Positions 16,572-29,767 of a DNA stretch of 64,000 bases are shown piece after piece. Source of the DNA: a virus; IMG/VR virus record IMGVR_UViG_3300020442_000017, positions 1 to 64,000 of that record; one strand, 5' to 3'. Made by a program: the position numbers and the translations under genes. How positions within the stretch are numbered: the first letter of the stretch is position 1; the number at the start of each line of letters is the position of its first letter. The notes below the pieces were generated by a model. The model saw only the letters and a program-made list of their open reading frames with translations. It searched no databases and was not told the origin of the DNA.

Positions 16572-19500
16572 ATGACGATTTCACCTGCTCCATCATATAG
16601 AAATACCAGACAGAATTATTATACAGATAAAGCATCTGATAATCATCCTCTAGGTGCCATTGTCAATACATTCAAAGCAATTACTGATGTATATGATAAT
16701 CAATATACACCATTAACTGCTTATACTGCTGTTAGTGGCAATGCTAATACCCCTACAAATCCTGAGTACCAGTATCCTGGTTACTTATATTGTGATGGAT
16801 CTGAGTATGAAATTAGTGATTTCCCTGCATTATATTCTATCATTGGTAATGATTATGGTGGAACTCCAAGACCAGGTATTAACCTAATTAATGGTGGTAG
16901 TGGATATAGTAGTGGAAGTGGATCAACAATCTACACACAGATCGGTCTTGAGAGTTATACTCAAACACATAATGCACCAATTCTGTTTACTCAGACAGAA
17001 GATGATACAGTAGGCGGTGGTAATCAATTCACTTGGTTGACTGATTATCACAATGCTATTAATGCAATTTCTGCTAATGCTCCATCAACTCTAACATCAG
17101 TTCTATATGGAGGACACGAAGGGTTTACAAAACAAACAGCAGATGGTCAACTACTTCAGACTGCAATTAGATCTGCTCTTGGCAATTCAAATGCTGGAAC
17201 TACTGCTATTACTGCACCCACACCGTTTACTATCACTCCAGCAAATAATCAATCAGCTACTATAAATGGTACATCTTACCCAGTTATGGGTAGATTGTAT
17301 GTTCCTACAAGTCTAGGCAATTCACTTGATGTTGTAGTTGCATTCCATGGAACTCTTGAGGAGAATCCTAACGGTCCAGATATTATTGATGCAGCATTTA
17401 CAACGCTTCAGCAACTTACCAATCAAAATACTGTTAATCTAAGAGATAAGATTATCTTCTCAGTTGCATATCCTCAGGATCATATTTCCAACACAAGACA
17501 GTTTAATCTAGGTGGTGTTGGTACAGAGTCATCAACATTCTTGATGGGAGATAACTTACCTTGGGCAAGAGCAGCAGTTAAGTGGGTTCAGAATGATTTA
17601 AATGCTTATATTGCAGCACAGGGTGGTTCTGTAACTATCAACGATGTTTATCTCTTTGGTCACTCTCAAGGTGGTAAACTTGTCTCTAAGATTAACACCT
17701 TAGATACTGGCATTACTGGTGTAGTTGCAAATGCTCCTGGTCCTATTCAGTTTGATCAAACTTGCTCTGTAGCTGCAAATGCAGCAGGTACAACTTGCTC
17801 AAAAGTTTCTGCAATTCATGGTCCTGTTGGTACTGGTGGTACTGGCACTACAATTACATTTGATGCCGCACCAGCTGGTGGACAAACTATTCAAGCAACT
17901 TTAGTAGTTGATCCTAGTGGTACAGTTATTGGTGTAAATCCAACTAATTTAGGATCAGGTTACACTTCAGAACCATCATATACTATTAATAATGCAGGTG
18001 GTGGTTCTGGTCTTCAATTAGAAGTTAATCTTAATGATGATGGAGCAATTGAATCTATTAATCAGGAGAATGTATTTAATCATTGGGGTGAATCTAGAAG
18101 TTTAGGTACGTTTAAAGTACCTGATCTTAAGACTAGAAAAGTTGTTGGATATGGTAATGTTTATGGAGCTGGAACTCCTAGCATTGGTTTGATTACACTT
18201 GGTGCTGGTGGTAACAATGGTATCGTCAAGCAGGGTGGATCATGGTATTTTGATAAACAATCTCAAACAGGATATTTCTCTCTTGGTTCAATCACCACAA
18301 CTGGTTATAGTGACATTAAAGATGATGTATCAACACGTATAATTGGTAGTCAAAAGGTGCATGTCACAATGGAGCAAAGAAGAATTCAACGAGTACCCGA
18401 TCATACTCATTTCATTTATCATACAGCAGCAGATACAACTTTCCAGTTTCGTAGTGCTATCTCTGGTGATAGGTACTTAGTTGATTATAGTAATGCAAAT
18501 GCACGTTTATTAGGTTGGACACCTATTGGTGGATTACATTTCCGTCATAAACATGGTTTATCTAAATCACCTATCGCAGAAAGAGAAACTGCAACATATG
18601 ATGTATTTGACTGGAGAGGTGGTGCTGAAGGAACTGGTAGTCTTAAATTCACAGGACCAGATTATTATTTCGCATCGGGTGGTTCTTCATCTGGAACATG
18701 GGAAACAGTAACAGAAACTGCACCATCTATGTTCAGAACATTTGTTGGTAACCCACCACCAGGTACAGGTTCTGTTATTGGTAACAGAGAAATTAGAACT
18801 GGTGGTAAAGAAATTCTTACTTACGTTCAGGATAACGTATATACTGGTAATTCATCTATTTCATTCCCACCAGCTTATAAAGTCATGGAAGTTGAAATCC
18901 ATGGTGGTGGTGGATCTGGTAGTGATGGAACACAATCAGGTAATGATGGTAACCCTGTAAACTTTAAAGTTGTAGCAGGCAGCACATTAGTTGATATTAC
19001 TGCTAATGGTGGAGAAGGAGGAGGAAAATCCAATAATTATACAAGTGGTGGTGCTGCTGGTACTGTCACAAAGGCAGGTAGTAATGTAAATAAGGGAGAT
19101 TTCACCTTTGACCAAGGAGTGGATGGAACTGCTGGTCAAATTGGACCTGGTGCAAATGGTAAGTTTCCTGGCACACAATATCCAAATAATCCTGGCCAAG
19201 CAGGTACTGGTGGTGTTGGTTTACATGATAGTGGAAATTATGGTGGTGGTAGTGATGGTGTTCATACACAATTAGGTGGAACACCAACTTCAGGATCAGT
19301 GAATGTTCAAGCTGGAAGTCAGCAGACCGTAAATCTATCAACAACATCAGAATTTAGTGAAATTAAATTCATTATTAGAGGTGGTGGTGGTGCTGATTCT
19401 CAGCAAGGAACTAGTCCATCATTTACTACGTATAATAATGTGCGTGGTGGAGTTGGATCACCTGGCACAGTAATGACACTTGAATGGAAGAATCCTGAAG

Positions 19501-21335
19501 CAAATTCTAATTACCAGTTCTTAATCCAAGCAGGGGGCGTCGGATCACGCTCCTCTGGTTCTAATGGTGATGGGCAAGGTGGTGCTGGCGGTAATGGATA
19601 TAGTAATGCAGGTGGTAAGCGTGGTGGTGATGGTGCTACTGATGATGGTGGTGGCGGTGGAGGTGCTTCCGTTGTTCTTTATCAAGGATCAATCATCGCT
19701 GGAGCAGGCGGTGGAGGCGGCGGTGGCGGTCTTCAAAACCATCCAAATTATCCATATAATGGTCGTGATGGAAGAAGTGCTAGTACATTATATTCAACAA
19801 TTTCAGCAGGAAACCTATACACAGGTGGTGGATCCATTGGTGGTAACTACGGTTGCGTAGGCGGCGGTGGTGGTGGTGGAGGCGGTGGCGTCTCTAGCAG
19901 CACTGCTGGTGGTGGTGGATCAGGTGGTGTTGGTGGTGACCCTACTGGACAAGGTGGTGCTGGTGGTCACGGTGGTGGAGAAGGAGGCAGAGCAGGACAA
20001 TCTGCTGCTAACCTTACTCACTTTAACTTTATCAATGCTTCTTCAAGTAATAGTGGTAATGGTTCAGTAACAATTGAGTATACAGAAGACAATAGTGCAT
20101 GGTCACCTGGCGGTGGCGGTGGTGGCGGTGGAGCATATGTTCTTTATAAAATTGAAAAGGATGATATGCCAGGTGCATCTGGTGCTCAGATAACATTTAA
20201 TTCATCTGCTGCTTCTGGTGTTGGTGGTACAAGTAATGGTCAAGTCCCTTATGCAAGAGTTGGATTTGGTGAAGTCACTGGATATGAAGGTGGTCAAGTT
20301 ACCACATCAGTTGGTGATATTATTGTTGATGCAAATGATAGTACAGATATTTTTGCTTCTGGTGCAGGTAATGGTGCAGGTGGTGGATTCAAACTACCAA
20401 CTACACAAGTTCCTGAAGTTGAATTTGTAGGTGGTGGTGGAACAGGTGCTGCTGCTACTGCTGTTGTATCTGGAAATAAAGTTACATCTATCACATTAGA
20501 TAATGGTGGTTCTGGATATGACGCTGCACCAGTTGTTCGTATTAAACATGGTGCTGGTACTCGTGCATTTGCTACTGCTACTGTAGATGAAGCTACTAAA
20601 ATTATTACTTCCGTTGCATTATCTCCCCTATTAACACCTGAAGCATATAATGCTGGATGGGGATATGTTAAACTAAGTGGTAGTGATCTGGTAAGATATA
20701 TTGTTGTAAAAGAAGCAGATTGTACAAATGTAAAACGCTTTAATATTAAAGTAGCACGTGGTAATGGTCTCAATGGTGGTAATAGACCAGAAAATGGTGG
20801 TGATGAGTTAAAAATCTATTATAATACTGATGGAAGTCTTAACTTTACCTCATTCTTAGGTGTTATTGTTCCTATTCCAACAGCAGCAGAAATTAACACT
20901 CAATACGATGGCACTGGTAGTGGTAGTAATCCAACCAATTGGTATTGGTATGGTATTGATTTACCAACTGCTGCACAAAAACCAAATGTTCGGTTTAAAA
21001 TTGTACAAGACAGAAATCCTGCTGGTGCATCAAATGATAATACAGGTGATACTGATCATTATGGTATTTGTGACTTCATCTATGAATATAATGAGACCAC
21101 TGAACTAAAATTTATTGCTGCTGGTGGTAAGATGTCAACCAACGTTGATAGATTGTCATATGAAGTAGAGGGTGCTGCAAATGCATTCTATTCATCAGGT
21201 GCCACTGGTAATGATGCTACGTTTACACTATCATCACAGGTAGCACTTGTACCAGATGCAGCAATTGAACCTGACATCAATGTACCAGTGGTTGAATCAT
21301 ACCATTTATGCAAATATTTAATCAAAGCGTTCTAA
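16572..21335 (+). CDS. Tail-collar fibre protein with inserted alpha/beta-hydrolase domain and poly-Gly region
   Basis: A 1587-aa protein. The collar fold begins at residues 71-97 (YLYCDGS, FPALYSIIGNDYGG) and resumes only at about 511-526 (LGTFKVPDLKTRKVVG). Between them lies an esterase-like domain: RLYVPTSLG at 241-249, oxyanion-type AFHG at 257-260, and nucleophile elbow GHSQGG at 363-368 with Ser365; Asp395 and His416 are possible partners. GSGY-type beta segments flank it. After the collar come HTHFIYH and FRHKHGL motifs, then a glycine-rich region at roughly 770-1220 with long Gly runs, reminiscent of the polyglycine sandwich of phage S16 gp38-type adhesins, and a further GSGY module. 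Likely a receptor-binding protein able to hydrolyse a surface ester; catalysis is inferred from motifs only. Confidence 0.85.
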   Translation: MTISPAPSYRNTRQNYYTDKASDNHPLGAIVNTFKAITDVYDNQYTPLTAYTAVSGNANTPTNPEYQYPGYLYCDGSEYEISDFPALYSIIGNDYGGTPRPGINLINGGSGYSSGSGSTIYTQIGLESYTQTHNAPILFTQTEDDTVGGGNQFTWLTDYHNAINAISANAPSTLTSVLYGGHEGFTKQTADGQLLQTAIRSALGNSNAGTTAITAPTPFTITPANNQSATINGTSYPVMGRLYVPTSLGNSLDVVVAFHGTLEENPNGPDIIDAAFTTLQQLTNQNTVNLRDKIIFSVAYPQDHISNTRQFNLGGVGTESSTFLMGDNLPWARAAVKWVQNDLNAYIAAQGGSVTINDVYLFGHSQGGKLVSKINTLDTGITGVVANAPGPIQFDQTCSVAANAAGTTCSKVSAIHGPVGTGGTGTTITFDAAPAGGQTIQATLVVDPSGTVIGVNPTNLGSGYTSEPSYTINNAGGGSGLQLEVNLNDDGAIESINQENVFNHWGESRSLGTFKVPDLKTRKVVGYGNVYGAGTPSIGLITLGAGGNNGIVKQGGSWYFDKQSQTGYFSLGSITTTGYSDIKDDVSTRIIGSQKVHVTMEQRRIQRVPDHTHFIYHTAADTTFQFRSAISGDRYLVDYSNANARLLGWTPIGGLHFRHKHGLSKSPIAERETATYDVFDWRGGAEGTGSLKFTGPDYYFASGGSSSGTWETVTETAPSMFRTFVGNPPPGTGSVIGNREIRTGGKEILTYVQDNVYTGNSSISFPPAYKVMEVEIHGGGGSGSDGTQSGNDGNPVNFKVVAGSTLVDITANGGEGGGKSNNYTSGGAAGTVTKAGSNVNKGDFTFDQGVDGTAGQIGPGANGKFPGTQYPNNPGQAGTGGVGLHDSGNYGGGSDGVHTQLGGTPTSGSVNVQAGSQQTVNLSTTSEFSEIKFIIRGGGGADSQQGTSPSFTTYNNVRGGVGSPGTVMTLEWKNPEANSNYQFLIQAGGVGSRSSGSNGDGQGGAGGNGYSNAGGKRGGDGATDDGGGGGGASVVLYQGSIIAGAGGGGGGGGLQNHPNYPYNGRDGRSASTLYSTISAGNLYTGGGSIGGNYGCVGGGGGGGGGGVSSSTAGGGGSGGVGGDPTGQGGAGGHGGGEGGRAGQSAANLTHFNFINASSSNSGNGSVTIEYTEDNSAWSPGGGGGGGGAYVLYKIEKDDMPGASGAQITFNSSAASGVGGTSNGQVPYARVGFGEVTGYEGGQVTTSVGDIIVDANDSTDIFASGAGNGAGGGFKLPTTQVPEVEFVGGGGTGAAATAVVSGNKVTSITLDNGGSGYDAAPVVRIKHGAGTRAFATATVDEATKIITSVALSPLLTPEAYNAGWGYVKLSGSDLVRYIVVKEADCTNVKRFNIKVARGNGLNGGNRPENGGDELKIYYNTDGSLNFTSFLGVIVPIPTAAEINTQYDGTGSGSNPTNWYWYGIDLPTAAQKPNVRFKIVQDRNPAGASNDNTGDTDHYGICDFIYEYNETTELKFIAAGGKMSTNVDRLSYEVEGAANAFYSSGATGNDATFTLSSQVALVPDAAIEPDINVPVVESYHLCKYLIKAF

Positions 21336-25169: not shown

Positions 25170-25229
25170 ATTGAATAATGTGTTAGAATACTTAGACTAA
25201 GACCCTTTTTGATTATAGGATTAGAGACA

Positions 25230-25913
25230 ATGAAAATGGCAATGAGTTTTATTGGTTTGTTTGCATCAATGCTTACAGTACCAGTGATGGCAGATCCAAT
25301 TGATAAAGAGAAACATTATTATACAAACCATGCTATGGGTTGTATGTTGCTTAGAGAATGCACAGACCATGTTGTAGAGATCAAAGATATCAATGACATC
25401 CGTAAAGAACTACCTGATAGTTATTATGATGATATTGCTAGTGAGTTTAATTCTCTCGTCCGATCACTTAATAAGGTCAGAGTTAAAGTTTTTCTAGCAG
25501 ATGAGAAGTATTTTCCAGTAGGACATCGTGGTGTGTATCATACTGTAGGTAATAACTTCTTCTTGAATAAGACATTCATGCATCGTCCACATGTACTCAT
25601 GAGTGTTATGCGTCATGAAGGATGGCACGCTGCACAAGACTGTATGGCAGGTACTGTTGAGAATAATTTGATTGCTATTATTCATAATGAAGAGGATGTA
25701 CCTCAGATCTGGCAAGACATTGCTACCAGAACATATCAATTCCAACCATCTGCTATTCCATGGGAGAAAGAAGCAACGTGGGCAGGAAAGACTGAAGGCA
25801 TGACTGCTAGAGCACTAGAAGTATGTGCTTCTGATACTCCTATGTGGGAAGTATATGAACCAACCCCACTAACACGTAAGTATCTCGTAGAAGAGGGATG
25901 GATGAAACCATGA
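25230..25913 (+). CDS. Exported zinc metalloprotease-like protein (HEXXH)
   Basis: About 227 aa from the ATG at 25230; an upstream TTG at 25209 is less likely because the signal peptide begins at this Met. Residues 1-21 form a Sec-type signal peptide (hydrophobic core FIGLFASMLTVPVMA, cut before DP). HEGWH at 129-133 is the zincin HEXXH motif: His129 and His133 would bind zinc and Glu130 catalyse. A downstream EKEATWAG (179-186) may give the third ligand. Cysteines at 38, 44, 138 and 199 suit the periplasm. The gene is alone, followed by a strong terminator module. Substrate unknown; roles in host envelope damage or protein turnover are inference. Confidence 0.72.
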   Translation: MKMAMSFIGLFASMLTVPVMADPIDKEKHYYTNHAMGCMLLRECTDHVVEIKDINDIRKELPDSYYDDIASEFNSLVRSLNKVRVKVFLADEKYFPVGHRGVYHTVGNNFFLNKTFMHRPHVLMSVMRHEGWHAAQDCMAGTVENNLIAIIHNEEDVPQIWQDIATRTYQFQPSAIPWEKEATWAGKTEGMTARALEVCASDTPMWEVYEPTPLTRKYLVEEGWMKP

Positions 25914-25930
25914 GTGGACACTTATCTTAG

Positions 25931-25972
25931 TGGCACAGAGGGGGTGGCAACACCCCCTTTTTCGTGTATTAT
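25931..25972 (+). promoter_or_regulatory. Promoter module merged with a terminator
   Basis: TGGCAC 25931-25936, 8 bases, TGGCAA as -35, 16 bases, TATTAT 25967-25972. The hairpin lies between box and -10. It drives 26064 through a leader of about 85 bases. Confidence 0.72.
25940..25962 (+). terminator. Rho-independent terminator with GCAA tetraloop
   Basis: Stem GGGGGTG/CACCCCC closing a GCAA (GNRA) loop, followed by five T. It ends the metalloprotease transcript. Confidence 0.92.
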
Positions 25973-28004: not shown

Positions 28005-28158
28005 TAAGAAGCGTATGGATGAACTTCTAGCAATGAAAGCGTTGCTAGAAGATACAGTAGAATACTATTGTGATGAATACATGGTATCAGGTGAAATTGC
28101 TTGGACTATGGTAGCATCACTTGCTGACGCTAAACTTAATGTTGATTTTCCTAAGTGA
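27994..28158 (+). CDS. Small hypothetical protein
   Basis: 54 aa, helical (KKRMDELLAMKALLEDTVEY). The reading frame is supported by overlaps at both ends: it starts within the last codons of the previous gene, and its TGA overlaps the GTG start of the deaminase gene. Confidence 0.58.
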   Translation: MEIDKKRMDELLAMKALLEDTVEYYCDEYMVSGEIAWTMVASLADAKLNVDFPK

Positions 28159-28520
28159 CTCGTTCTACTGGTAGTATTCATGATTTCGCAGTGAGTATAG
28201 CAATGACCTCCACTTCACGTAGGAGAGTCGGTGCTGTACTCTACAATAAGAACAAAGTTGTAGCAACAGCAACAAATATAGAGACTAAATCACACCCATT
28301 GCAAGCATACTTTGCTGAACGTGTTGGTCTTGGTGAGAAGATATACCTTCATGCTGAGATTGCTGCGTTGATCAAGTGTAAGCAAGAGTGTGATACAATT
28401 GTAGTCGCACGTGTTAACTCACAAGATAGACTACGAATGGCAAAACCATGCCCAATTTGTGAACTTGCTCTTAAAGAAGCAGGTGTATCCAACATTTATT
28501 ACACCACAAATGAACACTGA
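28155..28520 (+). CDS. Cytidine/deoxycytidylate deaminase-family protein
   Basis: 121 aa with a GTG start overlapping the upstream stop. Residues 66-68 are HAE and residues 98-102 are PCPIC, the zinc-binding and catalytic signature of CMP/dCMP deaminases (His66, Cys99 and Cys102 bind zinc, Glu68 shuttles protons). The N-terminus (RRRVGAVLYNKNKVVATATN) also fits. It probably feeds the pyrimidine nucleotide pool for phage DNA synthesis together with pyrE 2 kb downstream. Shorter than T4 dCMP deaminase (193 aa) and lacking its extra zinc region, so substrate (free nucleotide, tRNA or other) is open. Confidence 0.8.
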   Translation: MTRSTGSIHDFAVSIAMTSTSRRRVGAVLYNKNKVVATATNIETKSHPLQAYFAERVGLGEKIYLHAEIAALIKCKQECDTIVVARVNSQDRLRMAKPCPICELALKEAGVSNIYYTTNEH

Positions 28521-28870: not shown

Positions 28871-29201
28871 ACAGTCACTCACTAAAAACCTATCTAAACT
28901 CACTACTACGAGTAAGAAGAAGGTAAAGAGTGTTAAATCCACTCCCAAACCATCACGTAAGACTAGAATTGATAAGAAACCAGTCTTTATTGATGTAAAA
29001 TCAGATGCTAAATGGGAACTATGCAATGGTAATGGTAACATAAAGAACACATCTCCGTGGTATCTACACCCAGTAAAGCAAAATCATTTTAATAGATCAT
29101 GGTTTAGAGACTATGATGACGCATGTAAACAAATTAAAAGGTTGAAACTACGACCTGAAGACTACACATTATGGCATTGGACGAATCAAAAATCATCGTA
29201 A
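28848..29201 (+). CDS. Hypothetical protein with Lys-rich N-terminus
   Basis: 117 aa. Residues 1-47 are strongly basic and low in complexity (TTTSKKKVKSVKSTPKPSRK), suggesting DNA or RNA binding. The C-terminal half is compact and Trp-rich (WELCNGNG, SPWYLHP, RSWFRDYDDA). It overlaps the oxygenase gene by 31 bases. Function unknown. Confidence 0.7.
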   Translation: MARKSKTEQSLTKNLSKLTTTSKKKVKSVKSTPKPSRKTRIDKKPVFIDVKSDAKWELCNGNGNIKNTSPWYLHPVKQNHFNRSWFRDYDDACKQIKRLKLRPEDYTLWHWTNQKSS

Positions 29202-29767
29202 GAGATGATTATCTACCACAACAGCAGTATGAACAACTAAAGGACTATTTCCTAGGTCCACGTTGTTATTGGTATTATTGTGGTAACTATAGTGGTGGAT
29301 ACCCACAGATGGAGCATGTATTCTATAATGAATTTGTAGGCACACAGTGTTATGCTGGTGTGCCATTTCAAGCAGGTGAGGGTATGGCATTGATGAAACC
29401 ATTGCTTAGTTCATTTAATCATTCAGCACTCCTTCGTATTCGTGCAATTTGTAATTGGAGGACTGGTACAATGACACAACGTGGATGGCATGTTGATGTA
29501 CCATTTGATTGTACCACTGCTATCTACTATCTACATGATAGTGATGCACTCACATTATTCAAAGATGGTGATGATGAACCATTGGAGTGTGAGACCAAGG
29601 GAAATAGATTGGTTGAGTTTCCATCACAGTATGAGCATACGGTAACACCAATGACCACACCAGAGCGTAGGATACTAATCAACTTTAATTTCATACGAGC
29701 ATTGCCTGTTAAAGATGGACAGACATTTGTCTCACATAGATTATCAACACAACATCCTATGTCTTGA
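29171..29767 (+). CDS. 2-oxoglutarate/Fe(II)-dependent oxygenase
   Basis: 198 aa. The facial triad is visible: His107 and Asp109 in GWHVDVPFD, and His156 in YEHTV. Arg166/167 (PERRILINF) would bind the 2-oxoglutarate carboxylate. The double-stranded beta-helix strands fit (AIYYLHDSD, NRLVEFPS). Oxygenases of this class are common in cyanophages, usually without known substrate. It is the first of three in this window, and the three are not close relatives of one another. Substrate unknown. Confidence 0.85.
   Translation: MALDESKIIVRDDYLPQQQYEQLKDYFLGPRCYWYYCGNYSGGYPQMEHVFYNEFVGTQCYAGVPFQAGEGMALMKPLLSSFNHSALLRIRAICNWRTGTMTQRGWHVDVPFDCTTAIYYLHDSDALTLFKDGDDEPLECETKGNRLVEFPSQYEHTVTPMTTPERRILINFNFIRALPVKDGQTFVSHRLSTQHPMS

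Follow-up and report, generated by a model that had tools for sequence, protein, structure and literature searches.

A putative exported zinc metalloprotease encoded by a gene family common in T4-like cyanophages

A 64,000-nucleotide stretch of viral DNA (hereafter the window; positions 1 to 64,000 of the 92,304-base IMG/VR record IMGVR_UViG_3300020442_000017) carries on its plus strand, at positions 25230-25913, a gene of 227 codons that belongs to the phage protein family phrog_591, classified in PHROG under unknown function. Because the predicted product combines an export signal with conserved catalytic residues and conserved cysteines, it is best read as an extracytoplasmic zinc protease. 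With moderate confidence, we propose that it is an exported, disulfide-containing protease of the gluzincin type that cuts host proteins, with the envelope as the most likely compartment. Judged from their sequences, exported proteases of this kind are common in T4-like cyanophages.

The open reading frame starts with an ATG at 25230, which was preferred to an earlier in-frame TTG at 25209 because the relatives begin at an ATG, and a possible ribosome-binding site (AGGA, 25217-25220, plus strand), read by eye, is found 9 bases 5' of it. On the 3' side, an intrinsic terminator (GGGGGTG-GCAA-CACCCCC-TTTTT, 25940-25962, plus strand) was missed by a simple terminator scanner and was picked up by its fold z-score of -4.5; the preliminary description of this DNA, which had spoken of a stand-alone gene with its own terminator, was thus right for the window. 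Promoter-like matches 5' of the gene were no more frequent than expected by chance, and the late ATAAATA motif and the extended -10 element showed no clear enrichment upstream of the gene in 64 relatives. Comparison of pairs of close relatives gave dN/dS values of 0.06-0.34, indicating purifying selection on the protease gene.

Residues 1-21 (25230-25292, plus strand) form a Sec-type signal peptide, MKMAMSFIGLFASMLTVPVMA, followed by DP, with likely cleavage between VMA and DP. Scored with a simple script rather than SignalP, a positively charged n-region followed by a hydrophobic core was present in 66 of 67 unique relatives and in only 3 of the 73 window ORFs (plus-strand, ATG start, at least 60 aa), the protease included. 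The predicted zinc-binding and catalytic motif HEGWH (residues 129-133; 25614-25628, plus strand) lies in a predicted long helix, within the sequence RHEGWHAAQDC. As no other HExxH occurs in those 73 ORFs and all of the 47 relatives that were aligned retain HEGWH unchanged, the motif is not a chance occurrence. In all 47, R128, H129, E130, G131, W132, H133, Q136 and C138 are conserved, as are E179, E181, A182, C38, C44 and C199. The claim of a signal-peptide metalloprotease gene made in the preliminary description therefore holds at the level of the gene, its signal and its motif, and the HEXXH residues, whose loss in homologues had been named as a refuting outcome, are conserved throughout the relatives.

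The two invariant glutamates of the E-K-E triplet (residues 179-181; 25764-25772, plus strand), part of an E-x-E-A motif, are candidates for the third zinc ligand, which would be either E179 or E181. Cys38 (25341-25343, plus strand) and Cys44 (25359-25361, plus strand), both invariant in phrog_591 relatives, are likely partners, and a second disulfide is likely between the invariant Cys138 (25641-25643, plus strand) and the C-terminal conserved Cys199 (25824-25826, plus strand), each of which has an equivalent in a second family, phrog_16003. In the phrog_16003-type protein of phage ACG-2014f the cysteine after HExxH and the C-terminal one are both gone, a joint loss expected of a disulfide pair; S-CREM2 gp18, in which only the C-terminal cysteine is missing, is a counter-example.

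The profile search matched phrog_591 over residues 11-226 of the 227 (E 7.6e-106). Members of this family, which corresponds to T4-like gene cluster T4-GC 944 or 945 in GenBank notes and includes gp219 of Syn9, share the signal, HEGWH, ExEA and cysteines with the window protein and differ from it in none of them. Most are annotated as 'hypothetical' and a few as 'proteolytic enzyme' or 'SprT-like domain-containing protein Spartan'. The latter label, carried by one record (S-SCSM2R), can be discarded, as no SprT profile was matched in Pfam up to an E value of 10; HExxH is common to both, but SprT/Spartan proteins are bound to DNA in the cytoplasm or nucleus, whereas the window protein is predicted to be exported. 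More generally, searches of Pfam (up to E 10), NCBIfam and PADLOC returned no meaningful match for the window protein, which weighs against the proposed protease, and no paper discussing the gene was recognized in the literature search.

A search of a viral structure library retrieved proteins of Syn5 (gp14), S-CBP42, S-N03 and ACG-2014f, and those that were profile-searched belong to phrog_16003. This family, only 15-22% identical to the window protein, is connected to phrog_591 by profile cross-matches (E 2e-7 and 6e-5) and has in common with it a signal-like N-terminus, the pattern R-HExxH-xxQ-x-C, the E-x-E-A motif and the C-terminal cysteine, with the H-E-x-x-H and ExEA residues again invariant; its recognition as a second family with the same signal and motifs is new here. 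Unlike phrog_591, its members (Syn5 gp14 and S-CREM2 gp108, the latter annotated 'metallopeptidase', among them) are shorter, have a different N-terminal cysteine pair, and occur also in T7-like phages (Syn5, S-TIP28, P60, S-CBP42) and in siphovirus-sized phages (the 71-74 kb S-CRES phages), in addition to some T4-like ones. Two copies are present in S-CREM2 and in S-N03. Pfam matches around HExxH in phrog_16003 members, to peptidase M76 (E 0.001-0.09) and Zn_peptidase_2 (E 6.5e-4), all fell below the cut-off, and lend sequence support to a zinc peptidase. Membership in M76 (Atp23) itself was rejected, since the window protein had no match and its relatives scored 13-19 bits against a cut-off of 25.2.

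An AlphaFold2 model of the mature domain (pLDDT 90.7, pTM 0.88) places HEGWH in a predicted helix at model residues 99-118, as in the active-site helix of gluzincins, and ExEA in the next helix but one after it (152-165). Neither a sequence search of the PDB nor a Foldseek search of it with the predicted structure gave a significant match. When the Foldseek list was realigned with VIA, nearly all rows were HExxH zincins, with weak Z scores of at most 5.8, including PprI, an ImmA-like regulator, anthrax lethal factor, BlaR1, ArdC, selecase, BepA and M1 peptidases. A zincin fold is thus likely rather than proven: the best alignments of the model agree with the metalloprotease identity given in the preliminary description, which has good support from sequence and moderate support from structure, while the missing Foldseek match and the best Z of 5.8 count against it. 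The highest scores (5.5-5.8) were obtained with ImmA/IrrE/PprI-type zincins, in which HExxH is followed by a Glu-containing helix as here; these are cytoplasmic regulators of transcription or repair, unlike the predicted exported protein, and membership in ImmA/IrrE was discarded because Pfam gave no match up to E 10 and the resemblance is confined to these Z scores. Minigluzincins and selecase of Methanocaldococcus jannaschii share the small HExxH core (Z 2.5-3.7, weak) and have no sequence match to the window protein; they are not known to carry a signal peptide.

By tblastn, phrog_591-type proteins were found in 366 phage records, all of cyanophages (by name, 301 Synechococcus, 61 Cyanophage and 4 Prochlorococcus), and roughly 80% of T4-like Synechococcus-phage records, classed by record name, carry the gene. 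The family is thus present across cyanophages, a check the preliminary description had proposed, and the idea that a secreted protease is unusual in T4-like phages proved wrong for cyanophages, although it may apply to the T4-like phages as a whole. Among T4-like records, 362 of 439 named Synechococcus or Cyanophage had the gene versus 4 of 24 named Prochlorococcus (Fisher 2.5e-11, a p-value inflated by near-identical isolates; a few of the records in the numerator may lack a gp23 match). Syn1, the only such 'Prochlorococcus'-named carrier that was looked at as to its host, had been isolated on Synechococcus WH8101, and P-RSM1, a phage of Prochlorococcus MIT9303, is a true exception that carries a phrog_591 gene. 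In the genomes checked the two types replace each other, phrog_16003-type genes being present without phrog_591-type ones in S-CAM7, S-N03, MA01, S-CREM2 and ACG-2014f. Neither type was detected in six cyanophages that were checked (P-SSM2, P-SSM4, S-PM2, S-CRM01, Ma-LMM01 and P-HM1), three of which infect Prochlorococcus, the host of P-HM1 being strain MED4. We tentatively suggest, as a generalization with a rather low chance of being correct, that almost every Synechococcus phage, across three body plans (myovirus, podovirus and siphovirus-sized), encodes an exported zincin belonging to one or other of two interchangeable types. On this reading, its target would be an envelope or lumen protein that is present in Synechococcus and missing from most Prochlorococcus, and the enzyme would be a new kind of phage protease that edits the envelope or the lumen.

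Outside phages, the genome of Synechococcus elongatus gave matches to both families, which hints at a host homolog, and a plasmid collection gave chance matches only. A scan of genome contigs matched three contigs, all phage-like in appearance. One of them, a 188-kb contig assigned to Nonlabens xiamenensis (NZ_RMVE01000006.1, L094), bears a cyanophage psbA (~89% identical to that of Syn9), purM and the protease, and has the appearance of a cyanophage genome that was retained in the flavobacterial assembly; the other two (L092 and L093, both from MAGs) are alike in this respect.

In the proposed mechanism, a zinc-dependent gluzincin-type protease would be made inside the infected Synechococcus cell, exported through Sec and freed of its signal peptide, and would then fold with disulfide bonds in the periplasm, the thylakoid lumen or both. 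With zinc held by HEGWH and the downstream Glu (E179 or E181), it would cut one or more host proteins there; we infer zinc binding, activity, compartment and target alike. Cutting in the envelope might loosen or remodel it, either to help the cell lyse or to shut out other phages. The envelope ranks first among the compartments, and any one specific role falls short of an even chance. Endolysin neighbors favor an envelope or lysis role, psbA/psbD neighbors favor the lumen, and the position of the T7-like copies favors takeover or exclusion.

The endolysin association was seen in the metagenomic relatives most similar to the window protein, where 27 of 44 loci have an endolysin within 3 kb upstream. 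Two unrelated hydrolases, PF18013 (phage tail lysozyme) and PF07486 (cell wall hydrolase), occupy this same upstream place, never both in one locus (for example, L003:3489-4088 and L025:3852-4250). Against a lysis or envelope role, the endolysin is missing from the virus record of the window, a 92-kb fragment, and of eight isolates that carry a PF18013-type lysozyme, just four (Syn9, S-MbCM6, S-TIM5 and S-SCSM2R) have it within about 6 kb of the gene, the other four having it far away. S-PM2 has neither type and nevertheless lyses Synechococcus, which shows that lysis can proceed without the gene. Downstream of the gene, 39 of 48 metagenomic loci encode the membrane protein DUF6450 (PF20048), also absent from the window's record. 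This protein (L080:5960-6397 and relatives) has two hydrophobic stretches and, with an endolysin nearby in metagenomic relatives, is a candidate holin; of 14 cyanophage genomes examined for it, 13 encode it, and its occurrence in the protease-less P-SSM2 and P-SSM4 rules it out as a specific partner of the protease.

Sec signals of cyanobacteria serve the thylakoid lumen as well as the periplasm. The protein could thus be a lumenal protease that trims or removes proteins of photosynthesis, allowing the photosystems modified by the phage to function while infection proceeds. In isolates the gene sits in cargo regions, and it adjoins or lies near psbA/psbD in Syn9, S-MbCM6 and S-8S55; other copies are close to cpeT, CP12, petE, talC or zwf, with cpeT and CP12 accompanying gene copies that lie next to or near gp5 and with the gene between talC and zwf in one isolate, and distant homologs are found near phycobiliprotein lyases. 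However, the regions near gp5 and near psbA are hot spots for Synechococcus-phage genes that gather many unrelated genes (Sullivan et al. 2010, PMC3037559), and the window copy is surrounded by small phage genes without an assigned function, with no photosynthesis gene seen next to it. We regard action in the lumen as a possible but unlikely alternative to the envelope.

A comparably low probability is given to an early role in which the protease would destroy a surface receptor or porin soon after infection and so block superinfection. The T7-like homolog is directly 5' of the RNA polymerase gene in Syn5 and P60 and one small gene away from it in S-TIP28 and S-CBP42, which by analogy with T7 would be the early region, a position on the upstream side of the polymerase gene that is unsuited to lysis; the strong bias of the family to phages of one host genus also fits such a guard. 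On the other hand, these copies share only 15-21% identity with the window protein and may act differently, and the 64 relatives mentioned above showed no clear enrichment of early or late promoter motifs.

The weak structural similarity would also suit an exported inhibitor or scaffold with a catalytically dead, zincin-like fold. Dead enzymes usually lose some of their catalytic residues, and the invariance of both His, the Glu and the downstream Glu across two very divergent families makes this explanation improbable. Finally, a virion protein helping entry, suggested by several T4-like genomes in which the gene adjoins or lies close to that of the baseplate lysozyme, gp5, is very unlikely given the signal peptide, the absence of the S-CREM2 homologs ORF18 and ORF108 from that phage's virion proteome (PMC10665884) and that of the S-SCSM1 'proteolytic enzyme' from its named non-structural virion proteins (13 unknowns being unnamed). 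The S-CREM2 result implies that the protein probably acts in the cell that produces it.

Among the unnamed genes of phages that infect marine Synechococcus, this one ranks with the most common, and the proposal offers a function for it that can be tested. It also connects two PHROG families with no assigned function and suggests that an exported protease is a trait tied to host genus; identification of the target could reveal how phages open, close or retune the cyanobacterial cell.

Three other genes of the window may be mentioned. The gene at 16572-21335 encodes a 1587-aa tail-like protein with a serine-hydrolase-like stretch (VVAFHGT and FGHSQGGK), possibly an esterase domain. At 28155-28520 there is a dCMP deaminase-like gene (phrog_174, E 1e-20), and the product of 29171-29767 resembles a 2OG-Fe(II) oxygenase, a type often found near the protease family in other cyanophages.
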